From Streptomyces sp. (lineage in GTDB: Bacteria > Actinomycetota > Actinomycetes > Streptomycetales > Streptomycetaceae), in NCBI RefSeq assembly GCF_019510245.1, contig NZ_JAEKKT010000127.1, positions 124,001 to 188,000 on the forward strand: DNA of 64,000 bases, given 5' to 3'. A program made the position numbers and the translations under genes. Shown here piece by piece: positions 1,733 to 11,303 of this stretch. How positions within the stretch are numbered: position 1 is the first letter of the stretch; each line of letters starts with the position of its first letter. The notes under the pieces were generated by a model. The model was given only the letters and a program-made list of their open reading frames with translations. It was not told the DNA's origin and made no database searches.

Positions 1733-3982
1733 TCAGCCCGTGTACTGGGTGAAGACCTTGAGGTAGTCGTACGGCTGCTGCGTCACGCCGCTGCAGGCGT
1801 CGCCGTCGGTGCCCGAGCCGCAGGCCCGGTCGCGGTTGACGGCCCAGTAGGTGAGCCGCCCGATGTGGTGCTGCTGGGCGTAGGCGAGCATGGTCTTGAA
1901 GTCGGCCACCCTGACCCGCTCACCGGAGTCGTCGGTCTTGCCGTTCATCGACGACAGCCCGATGTGCGTGTAGGCGGTGGCGTCGCTGTAGCCGTACGCC
2001 GACTTCACCTGCGCTTTGAGGCCTTCCATGGCCTTGGTGGTGAGGCTGCCCATGTTCGTGGTGCCGCCGCCGAAGTCGAACGGCATGATGCACCAGACGT
2101 CGTTCGCCAGACCGGAGTTCGCGGCCCGCTTGATCATGTCGGTGCCGGTGGAGTCGGGGCCGCTGGAGGTGGTGCCGAAGGTGATGACGGTCTTCAGGCC
2201 CGGGTTGTTCGCCTTCACCGTCTTCAGCGCGTCGACGACCCGCTGCCGCACGGTCGCGTTGGACCACTCGGTGTTCTCGATGTCGATGTCGAGTGCCTTC
2301 AGCTTGTAGGCGTTGATCACCTTCTGGTACGCGCCGGCGAGCGCGGAGGCGCTGGAGCACTTCTCGCCGAGCTTGTTCCCGCTCCAGCCGCCGACGGAGA
2401 CGACGACGTCACCGCCCGCCGCTCTGATCGCGTTGATGGTGGACTGGTCGCTGCCCCCGGTCAGCGGGCGGGAGCCGTCCCACTTCGGGTTGCAGGTGCC
2501 GTCGGAGAGGATGAAGGCGAGCGTGAACCACTTGACGCCGGTCGCGGACATCACGGAGGTCGGGTTCTGGGGGCTGCCCCAGCCGAGGTACTCGTAGGGG
2601 GCCACGGCGAATCCCGGCGAAGCGGCCGCCGTCTTCAGGGAGTTGACGGGCTTGACCCGGATGAGCCTGGTCTCGCCCGGACGCAGGGTCGCGCTGTAGG
2701 AGTCGGCGATCACGCCCTTGTGGGATCCGGACCAGAGGTCGGTCACGTCGCCCCAGCCGCTGAAGCCGACCTGCGACCAGTTCACGCTCACCGTGGCGTT
2801 GCCCGAGGTACCGGTGTTGAACAGGGCCACGACGTACTGCCCGTCGCTCTCCTTCTTGCTCCAGACCTGCTTCACACCGCTGCTCACGATCCGCTTCGCG
2901 GCGACCCCGTCCTGGTCGACGCCGATCAGCCGGTCGTTGGTCAGCATCGCCTTGTCGACGGGGTCGAGCTGGGTGAGGTCGGTGCCCAGCAGCAGCGGGG
3001 CCGCCGCCATCGACCAGAGCGTGAAGTGCGAGCGGCGCTGGTCCGCCGTCAGGCCCACCTGGTCGCCGTTGCCGATCTCCAGCGAGTCCAGGTCGTTCCA
3101 GCCGCCGGGGCCGGCGTACTGCTGCCAGGAGGCGGCCGAGTCGAAGCGCTTGGAGACGTGGGACCAGTCGGTCAGCGGATAGCCGCTGCCGTTGCTCCCC
3201 GGCCCGCAGTAGCACTCGACGTCACCCTGGGTGCGCCAGCTGTTCGCCAGTTTCCGCCAGGTGGCGGCGTCGGCGATCGGCAGGTTGTTGGACAGGGCGA
3301 AGTTGATGGGCCGTCCGCTCGCCCGCAGCGCCTTGTCCCAGGCCTGGACGTCGGGGATGTCGGCGCTGCCCACCCCGTCGATCTTCAGGTAGTCGACACC
3401 CCAGGACGCGAACTGCTTGGCCCAGGAGTTGACGAAGTCCTGCGCGCCCGGCTTGGAGTAGTCGATGGCGTACATGTTCTTGCAGTTGTAGTTCTTCTCG
3501 GTCGTGGACGTGTCCGCGATGTCCTTCGCGTGGTACGAGGTGCCCTCGATCGGCGTGTTCTTGGTGACGGCGTTCTTCGCGATGCCGGGGGTGACGTAGA
3601 AGCCGAACTTCAGGCCCTTGGAGTGGACGTAGTCGGCCACCCCTTTGATGCCGTCCGGGAACTTGCCGGTGTCGACGGCCCAGCGGCCGTAGCCGTCCAC
3701 GGTGAAGCCGTTGGAGTCGCACTTCTGCCAGAAGTCGTCGAGGTTGACATAGACGAAGCCGTGGTCCTTCAGGCCGCTGGAGACCAGCGCGTCGGCCTGC
3801 GCCTTGATCTTCGCCTCGGTCGGCGTGCGGCGCACGAAGCTCCAGCTGGACCAGCCCATGGCGGGCCGTGCGGACTGGCCGTTGTCGGAGGCGGCCGCCG
3901 GGTGGGCGGTACCCACGAGCGGCACCGCCGCCGCGATGAGCAGGCCCGCCGCCGCGGCCGTGAGCGATCTGAACCGGATCAC
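1733..3982 (-). CDS. Secreted two-enzyme fusion: GH27 alpha-galactosidase + GH18 chitinase-like domain
   Basis: I start at GTG 3982, not the track's 4027, because it has GGGGGA before it, begins a signal peptide (IRFRSLTAAAAGLLIAAAVP), and forms a GTGA overlap with the upstream stop. Length is 749 aa. Residues about 30-440 are GH27: PAMGWSSWSF at the front, the nucleophile region DYLKIDG near 199, and the acid/base region GGWNDLDSLEIGN near 297. This part should release terminal alpha-galactose (or beta-arabinopyranose in some members). Residues about 447-749 form a GH18-type barrel (YEYLGWGSPQNP, VSVGGWSG) with the catalytic DxDxE pattern as LDIDIENTEW near 566. A GH18 module fused behind GH27 inside a pectin operon is unexpected. 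Its true substrate may not be chitin. Confidence 0.88.
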   Translation of the reverse strand: MIRFRSLTAAAAGLLIAAAVPLVGTAHPAAASDNGQSARPAMGWSSWSFVRRTPTEAKIKAQADALVSSGLKDHGFVYVNLDDFWQKCDSNGFTVDGYGRWAVDTGKFPDGIKGVADYVHSKGLKFGFYVTPGIAKNAVTKNTPIEGTSYHAKDIADTSTTEKNYNCKNMYAIDYSKPGAQDFVNSWAKQFASWGVDYLKIDGVGSADIPDVQAWDKALRASGRPINFALSNNLPIADAATWRKLANSWRTQGDVECYCGPGSNGSGYPLTDWSHVSKRFDSAASWQQYAGPGGWNDLDSLEIGNGDQVGLTADQRRSHFTLWSMAAAPLLLGTDLTQLDPVDKAMLTNDRLIGVDQDGVAAKRIVSSGVKQVWSKKESDGQYVVALFNTGTSGNATVSVNWSQVGFSGWGDVTDLWSGSHKGVIADSYSATLRPGETRLIRVKPVNSLKTAAASPGFAVAPYEYLGWGSPQNPTSVMSATGVKWFTLAFILSDGTCNPKWDGSRPLTGGSDQSTINAIRAAGGDVVVSVGGWSGNKLGEKCSSASALAGAYQKVINAYKLKALDIDIENTEWSNATVRQRVVDALKTVKANNPGLKTVITFGTTSSGPDSTGTDMIKRAANSGLANDVWCIMPFDFGGGTTNMGSLTTKAMEGLKAQVKSAYGYSDATAYTHIGLSSMNGKTDDSGERVRVADFKTMLAYAQQHHIGRLTYWAVNRDRACGSGTDGDACSGVTQQPYDYLKVFTQYTG

Positions 3983-6900
3983 GACTGTCCCCCGTTCTCG
4001 GGTGTGGCGTACGACGTGCCGATCCACGCCTCGTCGACCCGCAGTCGCTTGTAGCGGGTGGTGTCGCTGGAGGCCGCCCAGGTGGTGTCGACCTCGAGCC
4101 GGACGTAGCGGGCGTTGGCCGCGGTCAGGTCGATGCCCTGGATGCCCCGGCGACTGGGCAGCTGGCCGGTCTTGACCGCGCTCCCCCAGTTGGTGCCGTC
4201 GTTGCTGACGTACACCTTGTAGTCCTTGATCCGCGCGGACTGCTCGGTGTCCGAGCGGGCGTAGGCCACGGAGTCCTCGCGCTGGTTGAGCCCGATGTAC
4301 TGCACCTTCTTGGCCGAGCCGAGGTCGAAGGTGAGGTTCACGGGCAGCGTCTTGTTGTTGTCCCAGTAGGTGAGGTAGTCGCCGTCACCGGCCGCCGACG
4401 CGGCGTGCCCGCTCGCGGAGGCGCTCGCGCTGACCTTGACGCCGGTGAGGATGCCCTGGCGGCCGGCCGTCGTGACCTTGAAGACCGTGTCGTACGGGTC
4501 CCAGTTGCCGAGCCCGTTCAGGGTGAGCACGCCGCCGGACTGCGACCACGACACGGGCGCTCCCGTGCGGAGGTTGGTGACGGAGGCGATGCGGTAGCCG
4601 TTGTCCCGCACGCGCAGCGTGCTGGTGCTGGGCGGGGTCAGGACGTGGATGTACTGCCGGTTCGCGTCGTCCTTGGCGATGGTCGTCACGCCGTACGCGC
4701 CGTCGTTCCAGGCGCCGGGCTTGAGGCCGCCGTACATGTAGCCGCCGCCCTCGGTGCCGTGCAACGACTCCCAGATGGGGTCGAGGTAGGAGTCGGCGAA
4801 GTTGTTGAAGGCGGCCTGGTTCGATGGGAACTTCCCGTTGACCTGGGCGGTCTCGGCCATCAGGGCCTTCACCGAGGAGCCGACGTTGGTGACGAGGCGG
4901 CCGAGGGTCAGCATCTTGTCGACGGACGGGTCGGAGCCGTCGTACCACCAGGCGCCGGTCGAGGGCAGCTTGAAGTCGGCCTCGGTCAGGCGGGGCTGGG
5001 CGGTGTAGACGGCCTGGGGGTAGTCGTAGGACGGCGTCATGCCCGTCTTCTGCTCATTGCTGATCATGTCCATGATCGGCGTGTCTTCGTTGTTGTTGCT
5101 GAGCGTGTAGTTCGGGCGCTTGTCGTAGATCTGCTGGTAGAGGTTGTGGCTCTCCCAGTAGGAGTTGTCGTTGTCGATCCAGAAGCCCCCGAGGTCGGGA
5201 TAGCGGTCCATGACCTCGAAGAAGTTGTCGTAACTGAACTGGCCGAAGCCGTCGTTGGTGGTCAGGTCGACGTTCTTGCCCTTGTAGGCGGAGTACGCGG
5301 CGGAGTCGAGCCACTCGTGGCCGCCCTCGTCGTGCCACTGCGGGTCGTTGGTCATGTAGAGGATGACCTTCATGCCCTTGGCCTTGGCGGCGGTGATCAG
5401 CTCCCCGAGGAAGTCCCGCTTGGTGGAGCAGGAGCCGGGGATCTTGGAGGGCCAGGGGCGGGCGTAGCCCAGCCGGCTGTGGAAGGTGGCCAGGACCAGG
5501 TACTGGGTGTGCAGTTTCTGGGCCTCCTTCACCCAGTAGTCGGGGGTCCAGCCGCCGTTGGTGACGTCGTTCTCCCAGGCGGTGCAGCTGGTGTGGGCCG
5601 GTGCGGTGCGCAGGCCCCAGTGCAGGAACAGGCCGCCGACGGAGGCGCGGAGGAAGTCCTGGCGGGGGTTCTCCAGGTCGAGCGGCTTCACTGCCGCACT
5701 ACTGCCGCAGTCCTGGCCTCCCGAGACCCGCAGGGCGCCGCCGGAGGTGTTGTGGCTGTCCGTCAGGCAGCCGCCGGTGACGTCCTGGAAGCCCACGTCG
5801 AAGGGCGAGTTGCTGCCCTTCTGCGCGGTGAACCGGGTGAGCCGGATGCCGCTTGCCGCGTTGGCGACGAACGCGGGCCGGCCGTCGTTCGAGGCGAACT
5901 TGACCGAGCTGTCGGTGAACTGGACGTTGTCTGCGTTGTGCAGGTACCAGCCGTAGGCGGGCCGGGTGCCGATGCTCTTCGGGTTGTAGTCGGTCGAGTC
6001 GTTGCTCGGCACGCCCGTGGACATGGTGCCGTTGCCGCCGGGGACCGTGATGTTGACGTTGTTGAAGGTGACGCCGTTGATGCGGTGCCCGGACTCGCCC
6101 CACAGGGTCGGGCTGAAGGAGGGGCTGTTGCCGGTGGCGGTGATGTTGTCGTACGTGACATCACTGATCGATCCGACACCCGGGCTGTTGCCGCAGCGTT
6201 TGCGGGTGCCGATCTTCTCCATGATCGGCGAGTGCACGTTCGTCATCGTGATGTCGCGGTAGTGGACGTCGGAGATCTTCGAGCCGTCCATGGAGACCAT
6301 GCCGAGACCGGACTTGTCGGCGCCGTCGATGCGGATGTTCTCGAACTGGTAGTCCGAGAAGTCGCCGCAGGTCTCCGAGCCGAACATCAGGGCGTTGCAG
6401 CACTTGGCGCCGAGCAGCGAATCGCTCACCCGCACATGCCCGTTGGGCAGCTTGGCGCCGAGCGCGTAGTCGCTCTTGAAGACCAGGGCGTCGTCGTTGG
6501 CGTGGATGGTGGCGTTGGTGATCGTGGCGTTGGTGGTGGAGATGACGTTCCAGCCGTCGCGGTCGCTCGCGGTGTCGATCGTCAGGTGGTCGGAGGTCAC
6601 GTTGGTGCAGCCGTTGATGAGGGCCGCGAAGTGGCCGCCGCGGCGCAGCGTGAGGCCGTCGCCGAGCCGCAGGCCGTCGCACCGGGTCAGCGAGATGATC
6701 TTGTCGGCCTCACCGGTCTTCGGGTTGCCGGTGATCAGGTTGCCCGCGCCGTCGATGACGCCCTGTCCGACGAAGCCGATGTCGGTGAGCTTGTCGCCGT
6801 AGATCATCGCGTCGTGGAAGTGGCTGTGCCCGTAGTCCTGGTAGGAGTCGTACGGGTTGGACTCGGCCTTGTCGTAGGTGTCCGCGCTGGAGCCCTGGAG

Positions 6901-7221
6901 GGTGGCGCCCTTGTCGAGCTGGAGCGTCACATGGCTCTTCATGTGGAGGGTGTTCTTGGACTTGTAGGTGCCGGCGGTGAAGCGGACGGTGCCGCCGCCG
7001 GCCGCGTTCGCGGCCGTGATGGCCTTGTCGATGGCAGGGCTGTCGTTGGTGGAACCGTCACCCTTGGCGCCGTAGTCACGCACGTCGTAGACGGCGCCGG
7101 CACGCGGTGCGGCGGTCTGCGGGGCGGCGAGGGCCGCGGGGTGGGAGAGGCCGAGGACGACGGCGAGGACGAACAGGATGATTGCGGCGGCACTGCGCCG
7201 CTCGGCGGTGGGGGGTTTCAT
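3979..7221 (-). CDS. Secreted three-module glycosidase: GH28 polygalacturonase-like + GH29 fucosidase-like + CBM32
   Basis: The product is 1080 aa with an N-terminal signal peptide. Residues about 45-500 form a right-handed beta-helix of the pectate lyase/GH28 class: YDVRDYGAKGDGSTNDSPAI at the start, and an Asp pair in HANDDALVFKSD near 244. GH28 enzymes cut galacturonan or rhamnogalacturonan. Residues about 520-890 resemble GH29 alpha-L-fucosidases: GGLFLHWGL near 530 and GGFWIDNDN near 679 at the expected nucleophile position. Residues about 930-1065 are an F5/8-type C (CBM32) sugar-binding domain. The gene overlaps the next one by GTGA and follows the lyase-like gene by 12 nt. The GH28 canonical NTD is not obvious, so the exact linkage is uncertain. 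Fusing backbone and side-chain activities suggests attack on a fucosylated pectic domain (inference). Confidence 0.85.
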   Translation of the reverse strand: MKPPTAERRSAAAIILFVLAVVLGLSHPAALAAPQTAAPRAGAVYDVRDYGAKGDGSTNDSPAIDKAITAANAAGGGTVRFTAGTYKSKNTLHMKSHVTLQLDKGATLQGSSADTYDKAESNPYDSYQDYGHSHFHDAMIYGDKLTDIGFVGQGVIDGAGNLITGNPKTGEADKIISLTRCDGLRLGDGLTLRRGGHFAALINGCTNVTSDHLTIDTASDRDGWNVISTTNATITNATIHANDDALVFKSDYALGAKLPNGHVRVSDSLLGAKCCNALMFGSETCGDFSDYQFENIRIDGADKSGLGMVSMDGSKISDVHYRDITMTNVHSPIMEKIGTRKRCGNSPGVGSISDVTYDNITATGNSPSFSPTLWGESGHRINGVTFNNVNITVPGGNGTMSTGVPSNDSTDYNPKSIGTRPAYGWYLHNADNVQFTDSSVKFASNDGRPAFVANAASGIRLTRFTAQKGSNSPFDVGFQDVTGGCLTDSHNTSGGALRVSGGQDCGSSAAVKPLDLENPRQDFLRASVGGLFLHWGLRTAPAHTSCTAWENDVTNGGWTPDYWVKEAQKLHTQYLVLATFHSRLGYARPWPSKIPGSCSTKRDFLGELITAAKAKGMKVILYMTNDPQWHDEGGHEWLDSAAYSAYKGKNVDLTTNDGFGQFSYDNFFEVMDRYPDLGGFWIDNDNSYWESHNLYQQIYDKRPNYTLSNNNEDTPIMDMISNEQKTGMTPSYDYPQAVYTAQPRLTEADFKLPSTGAWWYDGSDPSVDKMLTLGRLVTNVGSSVKALMAETAQVNGKFPSNQAAFNNFADSYLDPIWESLHGTEGGGYMYGGLKPGAWNDGAYGVTTIAKDDANRQYIHVLTPPSTSTLRVRDNGYRIASVTNLRTGAPVSWSQSGGVLTLNGLGNWDPYDTVFKVTTAGRQGILTGVKVSASASASGHAASAAGDGDYLTYWDNNKTLPVNLTFDLGSAKKVQYIGLNQREDSVAYARSDTEQSARIKDYKVYVSNDGTNWGSAVKTGQLPSRRGIQGIDLTAANARYVRLEVDTTWAASSDTTRYKRLRVDEAWIGTSYATPENGGQS

Positions 7222-7233
7222 GGTGGCGGTTCC

Positions 7234-8022
7234 TCACACCTGTTGGTAGCCGCGGAGGTTGGTGAGCAGGAGATAGGTGTCCTGGAGCGAACCCGAGGTG
7301 TCGCCCAGGGAGCGGTAGATGCCCCACTTCGGACGCACCCGGTCGGCCAGGAAGGTGTCCACGCCCGTCTTCGAGACGTCGATCACGGTGGCGCCGCCGG
7401 ACTTGAGGATCCAGCGGACCGAACCCGCGGAGCCGTTGCCGACCTTGATCTGGAAGTCGACGTCGGTCCATGTGTCGTGCAGCGGGTCGAGGTCGGCACG
7501 GCCGACGATGATGCCGTCGGTGGCGAGGTTCAGCTCGATGGTCTGTTTGCCGTTCACCCGGCGCAGCGACTGCGTGACGATCGGCGAGGTGCCGGAGCCG
7601 GGCTGCTTCATCTGCATGATGTGGGTGAAGGTGGTGGTCGCCTTCAGCGAGCTCGGGATGTACATCGAGTACGTCACCCGCCAGGTCTGGCCCTGGTTCC
7701 ACTTGAGGTAGCTGCTGGAACTCGTGCGCAGGCCGGTGACCTCCTGGCGCTGGCGGTCGGTCGAGGTGTCGCGGTCGACCATGTGCATGTTGAAGCGCCA
7801 GTTGTTGCCGGTGGCGAAGATGTGCGGATGCCCGGCGGGGTGGGAGTCGGCGCGGTCGTCCTCGACGGTCTCGAACGCGCCCAGGCCGTCACTGCTCGCC
7901 GACGGCTGCCACTTCAGCTGCCAGGACGCCGCGTGTGCGGCGGTGGCCGGCAGACCGACGGCCGCTCCCGCGGCTCCGGCGAGCGCGGCTCCGAGAAGAG
8001 CCCTCCTCGATGTTGTGCTCAT
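7234..8022 (-). CDS. Secreted polysaccharide-lyase-like protein (heparin lyase I-type jelly roll), Tat signal
   Basis: The product is 262 aa. It opens with a twin-arginine signal (TTSRRALLGAALAGAAGAAVG). The mature part has alternating beta-strand character with WRFNMHMVDRD, KWNQGQTWRVTYSMYIP, FTHIMQMKQPG and RPKWGIYRSLGD. These recall the bacterial Polysacc_lyase/heparin lyase I-like jelly roll used by several glucuronan and alginate lyase families. Lyases of this type make unsaturated uronic-acid ends. That is exactly what the neighbouring GH105 enzyme removes, so the context supports a lyase acting on a uronate-containing polymer. The gene starts 5 nt after the GH105 stop. Family assignment is from motif memory only, and catalytic residues were not identified. 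Confidence 0.62.
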   Translation of the reverse strand: MSTTSRRALLGAALAGAAGAAVGLPATAAHAASWQLKWQPSASSDGLGAFETVEDDRADSHPAGHPHIFATGNNWRFNMHMVDRDTSTDRQRQEVTGLRTSSSSYLKWNQGQTWRVTYSMYIPSSLKATTTFTHIMQMKQPGSGTSPIVTQSLRRVNGKQTIELNLATDGIIVGRADLDPLHDTWTDVDFQIKVGNGSAGSVRWILKSGGATVIDVSKTGVDTFLADRVRPKWGIYRSLGDTSGSLQDTYLLLTNLRGYQQV

Positions 8023-8027
8023 GACAC

Positions 8028-9212
8028 TCAGTCACCTCGCAGTTGTTCGTTCATGATCAGGAAGGCGCCCAGACCGTGGAAGTCGTTGGTGGCCCGGTCA
8101 CGTGCGATGTAGTACGCGTAGTCGCCGACGTTGGTGCCGATGGAGATGTCGGCGAGGTTGGTGCGGCCGTCGGAGCCGACCGAGAGCTCTGCCAGCACAC
8201 CCTGGTAGCCGCGGTGCGCGACGGTGGCGTAGTGCGGGTCGAGGTAGCCCTGCTGGACGCCGCGGGAGAGGGCGTAGGTGAACATGCTGGAGCAGGAGGT
8301 CTCGGTCCAGTCGTCGGACCGGTTTCCCTTGTCCATCACCTGGAACCAGCGGCCGGTCGCCGGGTCCTGGTACTTCTCCAGACCGGCGGCCAGCTTGCGG
8401 AAGATGGCCAGGAGTTGGGGACGCCGGGCCTGGTTCGCCGGAATGGCGTCCAGGACATTGACGATCGCCATGGAGTACCAGCCGACGGCCCGGCACCAGT
8501 GCTCGGGGGCGAGGCCGGTCTGCGGATCGGCCCAACTGGCGGTCTTCGACTCGTCGTAGGCGTGCTTGAGCAGTCCGTTCGCGACCTGCAGATGACTGCC
8601 GTAGACGTACAGCTGCTTCGCCGCCTCGTCGTCGGTGTAGGCACTGTCGCCGAACTCCTTGCCGTACTCGACGAGGAACGGGTTCACCATGTAGACGCCG
8701 TCCGCCCAGAGTTGATGGGCGCGGCTGCTGGTGTCGGCGTGCCAGAAGCCGCCGTCGCTCGTGCGCGGGTAGGTGTTCAGACGGTCGCGGATCTTCTTGG
8801 CCGCCTTGCGATAGCGGTCCTGGCCCGTCTCGTGGTGCAGAATCACCAGGAGCCGGCCCGCCTGCATGCTGTCCAGGCTGTTAAAGGACTGGTCGATGGA
8901 GCCGTCGCTCTTCACGAACCGGTCGACGTAGTTCTTGATGTAGGTGAGGTAGCGGGGGTCGTGGGTGCGCCGGTAGGTGAGGTACTGGCCGTAGAGGTAG
9001 AGGCCGACCGGGTAGGACCAGCCGCCGATGGTGCTCGGGGTGTAGCGGGCCATGGTGGAGTCGACGACCGCGGTGGACCAGTCGGTGGCCGCGGCCGGCC
9101 TGGCCGGGGCGACGGCCGCGGCGAGGGCGGGCGGGGGGACGGCCGCAGGGAGCGCGACCAGGGGGGCGGTGGTGAGGGCGACGGCCGCGAGGGCGACTCG
9201 CAGGCGTTTCAT
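8028..9212 (-). CDS. Secreted GH105 unsaturated rhamnogalacturonyl hydrolase
   Basis: The product is 394 aa, typical for YteR/RhiN-type GH105 after a long Ala/Pro-rich secretion leader. The (alpha/alpha)6-barrel signatures are WSYPVGLYLYGQYL, LWADGVYMVNPFLVEYG (catalytic Asp region), WCRAVGWYSMAIV and HGLGAFLIMNEQL at the C-terminus. GH105 enzymes hydrate and release the 4,5-unsaturated uronic acid left by pectate or rhamnogalacturonan lyases. Its ATG overlaps the pqqE stop as ATGA, with GGAGG just upstream inside pqqE. Ribosomes finishing PqqE can therefore restart on this gene. Most characterised GH105 enzymes are cytosolic; the leader here predicts export. Confidence 0.9.
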   Translation of the reverse strand: MKRLRVALAAVALTTAPLVALPAAVPPPALAAAVAPARPAAATDWSTAVVDSTMARYTPSTIGGWSYPVGLYLYGQYLTYRRTHDPRYLTYIKNYVDRFVKSDGSIDQSFNSLDSMQAGRLLVILHHETGQDRYRKAAKKIRDRLNTYPRTSDGGFWHADTSSRAHQLWADGVYMVNPFLVEYGKEFGDSAYTDDEAAKQLYVYGSHLQVANGLLKHAYDESKTASWADPQTGLAPEHWCRAVGWYSMAIVNVLDAIPANQARRPQLLAIFRKLAAGLEKYQDPATGRWFQVMDKGNRSDDWTETSCSSMFTYALSRGVQQGYLDPHYATVAHRGYQGVLAELSVGSDGRTNLADISIGTNVGDYAYYIARDRATNDFHGLGAFLIMNEQLRGD

Positions 9213-10300
9213 GGTCCTCCTTCTGCAAGGGCTTCTCTGGGGGCGGCGGCCTCGGAGGTCCGGCGCCGGGGTACGAGGTGGTGGGCGGGGGCGTGGCGGC
9301 AGGCCGGGTCGGTGTTGCGGGCGTCTCCGGTGAGCGCGTACGCCTGGCAGCGGCAGCCGCCGAAGTCGGTGGTGCGCAGGGCGCAGCCACGGCAGGGCTC
9401 GCGCATCCAGGACTCGCCCCGGTAGGCGTTGAACGCCTTCGACTCCGCCCAGATCCAGGCCAGTTCACGGTCCCTGACATGGGGCGGGTCGAGGCCGGGC
9501 AGGGTGGCCGCGGCCGGGCAGGGCAGGACGGTGCCGTCGGGGGTGACGGTGAGCGAGATCCGGCCCCAGCCGCCCATGCAGGGTTTCGCCGTGCCGGTGA
9601 GGAGGTCGGGGGCGACCCAGACCAGCTCCGGTTCGTCCAGGCGCCGGCGCCAGCGCAGGACCGCCTCGCGGGCCCGCTCGACCTGGCCGGGCAGCGGCAG
9701 CAGCGCGGCGCGGTTGCGGGCCGCCCAGCCGTGGTACTGGGTGTTGGCCAGCTCGATCCGGTCCGCGCCCCAGGCCACACCGAGCGCGATCAGGTCCTCG
9801 ACGGCGTCCAGGTTGCCCCGGTGCAGGACGACGTTCAGGCCGAAGGGCAGGCCCGCCGCCCGGATCAGCCGGGCCGCGCGCTCCTTTGCCGCGAACGAGC
9901 GGGCGCCGGCGATGCGTTCGGCGGCGGTCGGCTCCGCGTGCTGCACGGACAGCTGCACACCGCGCAGCCCGGCGCCGACCAGCTCTGCCAGCCGCCGCTC
10001 GCTCAGCCCGAGTCCGCTGGTGACGAGCTGGGTGTGCAGGCCGGCGGTGTCGGCGGCGCCGACCAACTCGGTCAGATCACGTCTGAGCAGCGGCTCGCCA
10101 CCGGACAGGTGGGTCTGGACGACGCCCAGTTCACCAGCCTGCCGGAACACCTCGCTCCACTGCCCGGTCTCCAGCTCCGCTGACCGACCGATCAGTCGGA
10201 CAGGATTCGAGCAGTAGCCGCAGCGCAGCGGACAGGCGTGGGTGAGTTCGGCGAGCAGCGCCCAGGGCGGCGCCGGTCTGCCCGGCTCCGGGGTCGTCAT
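9209..10300 (-). CDS. pqqE: PqqE, radical-SAM PQQ peptide cross-linking enzyme
   Basis: The product is 363 aa, starting at ATG 10300. That ATG overlaps the pqqD stop (ATGA) and has GGAGGG 10 nt upstream; the ATG at 10309 is too close to the same Shine-Dalgarno. The radical SAM cluster motif is CPLRCGYCSNP near residue 20. C-terminal SPASM-type cysteines follow (KPCMGGWGR, LPCPAA, MREPCRGCALRTTDFGGCRC). PqqE joins the Glu and Tyr side chains of PqqA while PqqD presents the peptide, the first chemical step to pyrroloquinoline quinone. The track's 621-aa ORF adds an out-of-frame shadow in front and should not be used. Confidence 0.95.
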   Translation of the reverse strand: MTTPEPGRPAPPWALLAELTHACPLRCGYCSNPVRLIGRSAELETGQWSEVFRQAGELGVVQTHLSGGEPLLRRDLTELVGAADTAGLHTQLVTSGLGLSERRLAELVGAGLRGVQLSVQHAEPTAAERIAGARSFAAKERAARLIRAAGLPFGLNVVLHRGNLDAVEDLIALGVAWGADRIELANTQYHGWAARNRAALLPLPGQVERAREAVLRWRRRLDEPELVWVAPDLLTGTAKPCMGGWGRISLTVTPDGTVLPCPAAATLPGLDPPHVRDRELAWIWAESKAFNAYRGESWMREPCRGCALRTTDFGGCRCQAYALTGDARNTDPACRHAPAHHLVPRRRTSEAAAPREALAEGGP

Positions 10301-10551
10301 CGCAGCCATCCCTCCTTCCGTAACGCCGTCAGGAACTCCGGGACCTCGGCCGCGACCGGGGCGCCCGGGAACGCCTCGGCCAGTTCGGCGACGATCTCCG
10401 GGACCGCCCGGCTGCCGTCGCACAGCCGGAGCACCCCGCCCGCCCGGCCGTGCAGCACGACCACGCGCTCGGGCAGCAGCAACAGGTCCGTGCCACGGAC
10501 CCGGTCGTGGCGCAGTACGACCGCGCGGGCGAGGACGGGCCGCCAGGTCAT
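10297..10551 (-). CDS. pqqD: PqqD, peptide chaperone (RiPP recognition element)
   Basis: The product is 84 aa, the usual PqqD size. It shows the family pattern RPVLARAVVLRHDRVRG, then LLLLPERVVVLHGRAGGVLRLCDG, then a helical C-terminus with VPEFLTALRKEGWLR. PqqD is the founding RiPP recognition element; it binds PqqA and delivers it to PqqE. Its ATG overlaps the pqqC stop and its stop overlaps the pqqE start, both as ATGA. The three proteins should therefore be made in fixed ratio. The ORF track only shows it as the tail of a 250-aa shadow ORF. Confidence 0.93.
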   Translation of the reverse strand: MTWRPVLARAVVLRHDRVRGTDLLLLPERVVVLHGRAGGVLRLCDGSRAVPEIVAELAEAFPGAPVAAEVPEFLTALRKEGWLR

Positions 10552-11303
10552 GGCCCGCCGCCGTCCCGGGCGTCGCCCCAGCCACCGGTGTCCCCGCGGT
10601 CGACGGCGTCGAGCAGTGCCCACAGCACCTCGCACTTGTAGGCGAGCGCGGCCACGGCGCGCTGCTGCTCCTCGCGGGTGCGGGCCCAGGCCTGGACCAG
10701 CGCGAGGGCCTCCGCGCCGTCCCGGGCGCCCTGGTCGACGCGGGTGCGGAAGTAGCCGAGGCCGGCCGGGTCGATCCACGGGTAGTGGCGTTCGAAGGCG
10801 GTGATGCGGGTGCGCATGAGACCGGGCGCGGACAGTTCGGTGAGGGAGGCGGCGACCGCGTCCAGGGCGGGGCGCAGCCGGCAGAAGGTGACGTACCCCT
10901 CGACCGCGAAGCGCACCCCGGGCAGCACCCGGGAGCTGTCCCACAGTTGTTCGCGGGGGACCCCGGCGGCCTCGCCGAGGCGCAGCCAGCGCTCGATGCC
11001 GCCCTCGCCCTCGGCGTTGCCGTCGTGGTCGCGGATGCGCCGCAGCCATGGACGGCGCAGTGCCGGCCGGTCAAGTTTGGCGAGGATCAGGGCGTCCTTG
11101 ACGGGGATGTGGCGCTGGTAGTGGAAGCGGTTGGTGATCCAGCGGCGCAGTTCGGCCGGGGTCAACTCACCCCGGTGCATGCGCTGGTTGAAGGGGTGCC
11201 GGTCGTGGTAGCGGTCGGCGGTGACGGCGCGCAGCCGTTCGGTGAACTCCGGGACCGGCCAGGGGTCGGCGGCCGTCCCGGCGTGGACGGCGGTGACGGT
11301 CAT
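10548..11303 (-). CDS. pqqC: PqqC, pyrroloquinoline-quinone synthase
   Basis: The product is 251 aa, full length for PqqC. It has the all-helical TENA/THI-4-like fold with hallmark segments YHDRHPFNQRMHRGELT, WITNRFHYQRHIPVKDALI and ERHYPWIDPAGLGYFRTR. PqqC carries out the last step, ring closure and eight-electron oxidation of AHQQ to PQQ, without a metal or flavin. The gene starts 20 nt after the pqqA stop, where pqqB would be expected in most clusters, and its stop overlaps pqqD by 4 nt. Confidence 0.95.
   Translation of the reverse strand: MTVTAVHAGTAADPWPVPEFTERLRAVTADRYHDRHPFNQRMHRGELTPAELRRWITNRFHYQRHIPVKDALILAKLDRPALRRPWLRRIRDHDGNAEGEGGIERWLRLGEAAGVPREQLWDSSRVLPGVRFAVEGYVTFCRLRPALDAVAASLTELSAPGLMRTRITAFERHYPWIDPAGLGYFRTRVDQGARDGAEALALVQAWARTREEQQRAVAALAYKCEVLWALLDAVDRGDTGGWGDARDGGGP

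Follow-up and report, generated by a model that had tools for sequence, protein, structure and literature searches.

The question raised by this locus is what a chitinase-type GH18 domain, joined to a GH27 domain, does within a run of genes that has the appearance of a pectin operon. The fusion gene lies at positions 1733–3982 on the minus strand of the window, the 64,000-nt stretch of Streptomyces DNA that was analyzed, and encodes 749 aa comprising a signal peptide, GH27, a linker and GH18. Its reading frame is unbroken from a GTG start at 3982 to a stop codon at 1733–1735, and the GTG shares nucleotides with the stop codon of the gene upstream (‘GTGA’, 3982–3979), so that the two genes are probably co-translated.

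The GH27-GH18 fusion recurs within one genus

The original prediction had described a GH27-GH18 fusion with intact catalytic acids, and both points were borne out: the open reading frame is in place with matches to GH27 by Pfam and to GH18 by phmmer and Foldseek, and D202 and D254 of GH27 as well as D565-x-D567-x-E569 of GH18 are all present. We built an AlphaFold2 model of the fusion from 28 related sequences (overall pLDDT 78). Residues 1–31 (3890–3982, minus strand) look by eye like a signal peptide, with a helix at residues 3–18 of the model, and residues 447–457 (NSLKTAAASPG; 2612–2644, minus strand) form a linker of ~11 aa between GH27 and GH18. The product is most likely a putative secreted bifunctional glycosidase, as judged from its sequence.

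Among 296 congeners, 13 encode GH27 and GH18 in a single open reading frame; sampling 395 genomes across the class brought one more fusion, in the same genus. A scan of named genomes yielded 26 fusions, every one of them in Streptomyces (including S. griseorubiginosus, S. canus, S. pseudovenezuelae, S. coacervatus and S. turgidiscabies). In these samples, which were drawn rather than exhaustive, we detected no GH27-GH18 fusion outside Streptomyces; Actinacidiphila, Actinomadura, Nonomuraea and others either encode the parts separately or lack GH18 in the locus. All 26 fusions from named genomes keep the GH27 residues D82, D83, D202, S231, N232 and D254 and the GH18 residues D565, D567, E569, D636, F637 and W713, and dN/dS relative to the window is 0.13–0.30 for GH27 and 0.12–0.31 for GH18 (median 0.18 for each half). 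Both halves are under purifying selection, and this, together with the recurrence of the fusion among congeners and named genomes, led us to reject misassembly or chance. Specifically, an assembly or annotation artefact that joined two genes might be suspected from a source assembly of 556 contigs with 7% contamination, but the same in-frame junction occurs in single-contig genomes and in the 26 named genomes, which leaves this explanation a negligible probability; that the fusion is real is virtually certain. Both domain families are known, and in the open literature searched we found no report of a natural protein that pairs them.

The GH27 half probably belongs to an Abp-like subgroup

The GH27 half (residues 32–446; 2645–3889, minus strand) consists of a catalytic barrel and a C-terminal beta-sandwich, as identified by PF16499, PF17801 and Foldseek, with Pfam matches over residues ~50–443 to Melibiase_2 (1.9e-39) and Melibiase_C (3.3e-15). 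Alignment to the rice enzyme 1uas and to Abp (4nx0) places the nucleophile at D202 within YLKIDG (3377–3379, minus strand), and the acid/base aligns at D254 within RTQGDVECYC (3221–3223, minus strand). The fold, the catalytic Asp pair and the GGWNDxD region are common to the rice (1uas) and tobacco (6f4c) alpha-galactosidases, but the fusion lacks their CEW motif: at the site that recognizes the 2-OH in the rice enzyme it carries S231-N232-N233 (3284–3292, minus strand), with ALSNNL replacing SLCEW in the alignment. The name alpha-galactosidase is thus a family guess that does not specify the sugar, and as used in the original prediction it was too strong, given also that the nearest structure is Abp (4nx0/4nxk, TM ~0.76), a beta-L-arabinopyranosidase from Geobacillus. 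Abp and BH1870 (3cc1) share with the fusion both catalytic Asp residues and an NTPIxGT...DIADT insertion. Abp differs in having no fusion partner and in carrying an Ile, which blocks C6, in place of the second Asp of a DD pair that the fusion retains in full (D82-D83), whereas the fusion has an additional VECYC segment after the acid/base. The GH27 half is most likely an exo-glycosidase of the Abp/BH1870-like subgroup, which would take off a terminal galactose or related sugar, with two aspartates acting in a retaining mechanism.

The GH18 half retains chitinase-type active-site motifs

Residues 458–749 (1736–2611, minus strand) form a GH18 chitinase-type barrel according to phmmer, AlphaFold2 and Foldseek. 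The window protein has no match to Pfam GH18 (PF00704), and its relatives score 17–21 bits against a cut-off of 29.6; this miss reflects a criterion of the library, not a biological one, and we assign the domain to GH18 because it has the (beta/alpha)8 fold and the DxDxE motif and because its sequence matches solved GH18 domains significantly. By phmmer, residues ~461–749 match the GH18 domain of S. venezuelae chitinase 1 (9buf, 1.9e-49) and active domain 2 of Pyrococcus furiosus ChiA (2dsk, 2e-25). A structural check set beforehand was whether this part folds as a GH18 barrel, and the model, with block pLDDT mostly 85–97 here, is a (beta/alpha)8 barrel that superposes on 9buf with a TM of 0.94 (1.5 Å, 35% identity) and on 2dsk with a TM of 0.85.

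The alignment places the catalytic motif D565-I-D567-I-E569 at 2276–2290 and D636-F637 of MPFDFG at 2072–2077 (both minus strand), and the barrel, DxDxE, the second-motif Asp (D636) and the barrel-end Trp (W713) are common to the fusion, 9buf and 2dsk. The fusion departs from both in being joined to GH27 and in carrying Phe after the second-motif Asp, where 9buf and 2dsk have Tyr. Since the aligned Streptomyces relatives likewise have Phe, F637 is not peculiar to the fusion GH18; another Tyr might hold the acetamido group in its place. Nothing specific pointed to an active site altered toward a new linkage, as MPFDFG and DIDIE also occur in free Streptomyces relatives. Conversion of the GH18 half into a non-catalytic carbohydrate-binding module would agree with the subthreshold Pfam score and with Phe at the usual Tyr position, but the invariance of DxDxE, D636 and W713 in 26 of 26 fusions, the dN/dS of 0.18 and the same Phe in free relatives make it very unlikely. 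The fusion GH18 is probably a chitinase, judging from its sequence features, and its substrate would be chitin or a partly deacetylated form of it, cleaved by the retaining, substrate-assisted mechanism of family GH18.

In the tree, the GH18 domains of these loci group in one clade (support 88/78) that does not include the free Streptomyces chitinases, and a one-off insertion of GH18 into a pectin operon was rejected on this ground. The residues that best separate the two groups are E464 and N627; E464 (2591–2593 of the window, minus strand), in the first barrel strand of the model, is present in 23 of 23 locus GH18s including the fusion and is Leu in 19 of 19 free Streptomyces relatives. E464 might contact glucosamine.

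The surrounding operon

The run of minus-strand genes starts with a PqqC-like gene (10548–11303), followed by PqqD-like (10297–10560) and PqqE-like radical SAM/SPASM (9209–10244) genes, all identified by profile match and the latter two with approximate starts. These three genes (9209–11303) head the operon, and a PQQ sugar dehydrogenase closes it (GSDH, AA12-like, with CBM6/35-fn3-fn3 by Pfam; 1–1721); its gene continues past the window end and encodes 676 aa in the contig. The window contains no pqqB, and two pqqB-like genes are found elsewhere in the genome (C111, C406). Between these lie a GH105/GH88 gene (8028–9212), whose closest solved relative is B. subtilis YteR (1.2e-78), a PF14099 polysaccharide lyase (7234–8022) and, immediately upstream of the fusion, a 1080 aa GH28 - GH29-like - CBM32 triple fusion (3979–7221; Pfam). 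The best NCBIfam match of the triple fusion is to BT4146-type rhamnogalacturonidase, below the cut-off, and some relatives (G254, G177, G222) lack the GH28 domain. The lyase occurs in 59 of 296 congeners (E 1e-40 or better) and has no sequence or profile relative among solved structures; a PDB sequence search showed no relation to the PL20 glucuronan lyase of T. reesei. Its poor, low-confidence model (pLDDT 57) suggests a jelly-roll, nearest to jelly-roll uronate lyases for alginate and glucuronan, with T. reesei 2zzj at rank 19 (E 1.7e-4).

The label ‘pectin operon’ therefore stands as far as GH28 and GH105, both present in the run, and no further: by Pfam the run contains no pectate, pectin or RG lyase of known family, and its sole lyase is the PF14099 protein with its alginate/glucuronan-like model. 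The proposal that the GH18 acts on a different linkage because of a pectin setting was not supported, given active-site motifs identical to those of free Streptomyces GH18 chitinases and the existence of small loci in which the locus-type GH18 has other company. One contains only the lyase and a CBM35-GH18 (G103), another the lyase, GH18, a CBM35-GH8 and the dehydrogenase (G075), and a third pqqB/pqqC, GH18 and the dehydrogenase (G281); GH28 and GH105 are absent from all three. In several genomes the lyase adjoins the dehydrogenase without GH18 (e.g. G265, G207, G213), and in eight relatives the locus is otherwise intact but has no GH18, which indicates that GH18 is dispensable there.

Probable stepwise joining of separate genes

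Across relatives, the enzymes of the locus occur in five states. In state A (G212, G236, G063 and others) they are separate genes, most with their own CBM35: GH28-CBM35, GH29-CBM32-CBM35, GH27-CBM35, CBM35-GH18 and CBM35-GH8, the last of which, in loci with separated genes, is flanked by GH18 and the dehydrogenase (L047:8959-11031, L051:10684-12330, L066:5326-6966). In state B, GH28-GH29-CBM32 are fused, GH27 stands alone, and GH18 is alone (G128, without CBM35) or absent; in state C, GH28-GH29-CBM32-GH27 form one open reading frame and GH18 is absent. State D is the window type, with GH27-GH18, and in state E all five modules, GH28-GH29-CBM32-GH27-GH18, are in one open reading frame of ~1800 aa, as in L045:2592-8090 (G040), L056:3927-10160 (G101) and the named strains L147, L148, L153, L154 and L161.

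The fusion most likely arose within Streptomyces by the joining of two neighboring genes of one locus. In G128, the unfused GH18 continues after its signal peptide as ...LASPGMAVAPYEYLGWG, and the ASPG of the fusion linker corresponds to this mature N-terminus; fused linkers end in approximately AAASPG(M), followed by AVAPYEYLGWG. Because the unfused intermediate starts with ASPG after its signal peptide, the joining step was most likely a deletion that ran from the GH27 stop codon through the spacer and the signal peptide of GH18 and left the mature start of GH18 as the linker. The GH27 tree is compatible with one or several origins of the fusion, and the five-module type appears in more than one place in it.

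Other arrangements were seen in passing. In G286 (L050), a GH18 fragment of 63% identity lies behind GH27-CBM35 (6520–6642 of the reverse-complemented locus) and is likely a remnant decaying after loss of GH18. In Nonomuraea solani (L195), GH29-CBM32-CBM35-GH27-CBM35 make up one open reading frame, a separate fusion in another genus; a Nonomuraea locus also has an additional GH95 with CBM35.

Target polymer of the locus

Judging from sequence families, the surrounding genes would fit digestion of a fungal cell wall at least as well as that of plant pectin. The genes concerned are the chitinase-type GH18, the GH8 of relatives, the putative jelly-roll lyase (with its poor model), the GH29-like domain and, in Nonomuraea, GH95, as well as GH27 and the PQQ dehydrogenase with its PQQ genes. 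The nearest solved relatives of the GH8 are a GH8 glucanase (2.6e-100) and a chitosanase (8e-68). By analogy the set is reminiscent of the composition of Mucorales walls, which combine chitin/chitosan with a fucose-galactose-glucuronic acid polymer. These walls contain chitin/chitosan with a glycuronan of Fuc:Man:Gal:GlcA 5:1:1:6 (PMC6433966), and the R. oryzae wall has been reported to hold 20% Fuc, 3–23% GlcA and 12% Gal (PMC11437000). By analogy, a chitin/chitosan wall of the Mucoromycota type is the target we tentatively favor, at a little short of even chances. We infer substrates, joint action and the benefit of fusion from family and context: the lyase, together with GH105, would break open the chain of uronic acids, fucose and galactose would be stripped off by the GH29-like part and GH27, GH18 would cut the chitin mixed with the uronic acid polymer, and the PQQ dehydrogenase, next to the PQQ genes, would oxidize a released sugar.

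Two precedents parallel parts of this scheme. The fungal AA12 enzyme CcPDH, which oxidizes L-fucose, is like the GSDH neighbor a PQQ sugar dehydrogenase that carries a carbohydrate-binding module (PMC5960967), although the GSDH is bacterial, carries CBM6/35 and two fn3 domains, and has no visible cytochrome domain. A man-made chimera of a Trichoderma glucuronan lyase and a chitinase, aimed at the Mucorales wall (PMC7601620), follows a similar principle, a chitinase coupled to an enzyme that attacks the second polymer of this wall; the fusion described here differs in being natural, in having GH27 as the partner of GH18 and in leaving the lyase as a separate gene.

Several observations count against a fungal wall. 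In NMR work on Mucorales walls published in 2024, GlcA was not detected (PMC11437000). The dispensability of GH18 in the eight relatives described above weighs on this side too, as do the poor model of the lyase and its lack of sequence relatives among solved structures, and the Phe at position 637 of the GH18, where 9buf and 2dsk carry Tyr. GH28 is a galacturonide family with a rhamnogalacturonidase as the best family match here, and GH105 is closest to YteR, an enzyme of rhamnogalacturonan I breakdown; these sequence affinities would suggest a plant target. No GH8 was found in the whole genome of the window, which counts against chitosan breakdown by GH8 in this strain. The unsaturated sugar that lyases leave at the chain end is identical for GlcA and GalA chains, and GH105 would thus suit both targets.

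The principal alternative is a plant rhamnogalacturonan operon, in which GH28 and GH105 would break into RG-I, GH27 would take galactose or beta-L-arabinopyranose off the side chains, and plant glycoproteins or a different linkage would be the substrate of GH18. The affinities of GH28 and GH105 just described speak for it, as does the structural proximity of the GH27 half to a beta-L-arabinopyranosidase; set against these are the chitinase motifs that GH18 shares with free Streptomyces enzymes, the small loci that pair GH18 with the lyase, GH8 or PQQ/dehydrogenase genes in the absence of GH28 and GH105, the absence from the run of a pectin-type lyase of known family, and several fusion-bearing loci without GH28. 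We regard this alternative as rather unlikely. Somewhat more doubtful still is a mixed scavenging locus whose parts act on different polymers, the fusion merely saving export signals and binding modules with no joint substrate. The eight otherwise intact loci without GH18 would be explained in this way, as would the free fusion of neighbors (GH28-GH29-CBM32 and GH28-GH29-CBM32-GH27) and the disappearance of CBM35s as modules fuse, but the GH18 clade is tied to the locus, and the lyase-GH18 and PQQ-GH18-dehydrogenase pairings recur.

Returning to the fungal-wall reading, we propose that fusion would keep the activities at one spot and replace the CBM35 that each separate enzyme has in relatives. 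The explanation as a whole, combining gene joining, a chitinase-type GH18, a GH27 exo-glycosidase, a fungal-wall operon and a benefit of fusion, stands in our estimation at even odds. A further, bolder version, in which a locus dedicated to Mucoromycota-type walls had its separate CBM35-bearing enzymes for chitin, fucose, galactose and polyuronide fused stepwise into a natural five-module polypeptide, with the window at a two-plus-three stage, is possible at somewhat less than even odds.

Within one genus the locus passes through graded states, from separate genes up to a polypeptide of five modules, so that what fusing enzymes costs and what it gains could be measured at each stage. Should the fungal-wall reading be true, the locus would name enzymes for the poorly known wall polyuronides of Mucorales, and the presence of a chitinase among ‘pectin’ genes would be explained.
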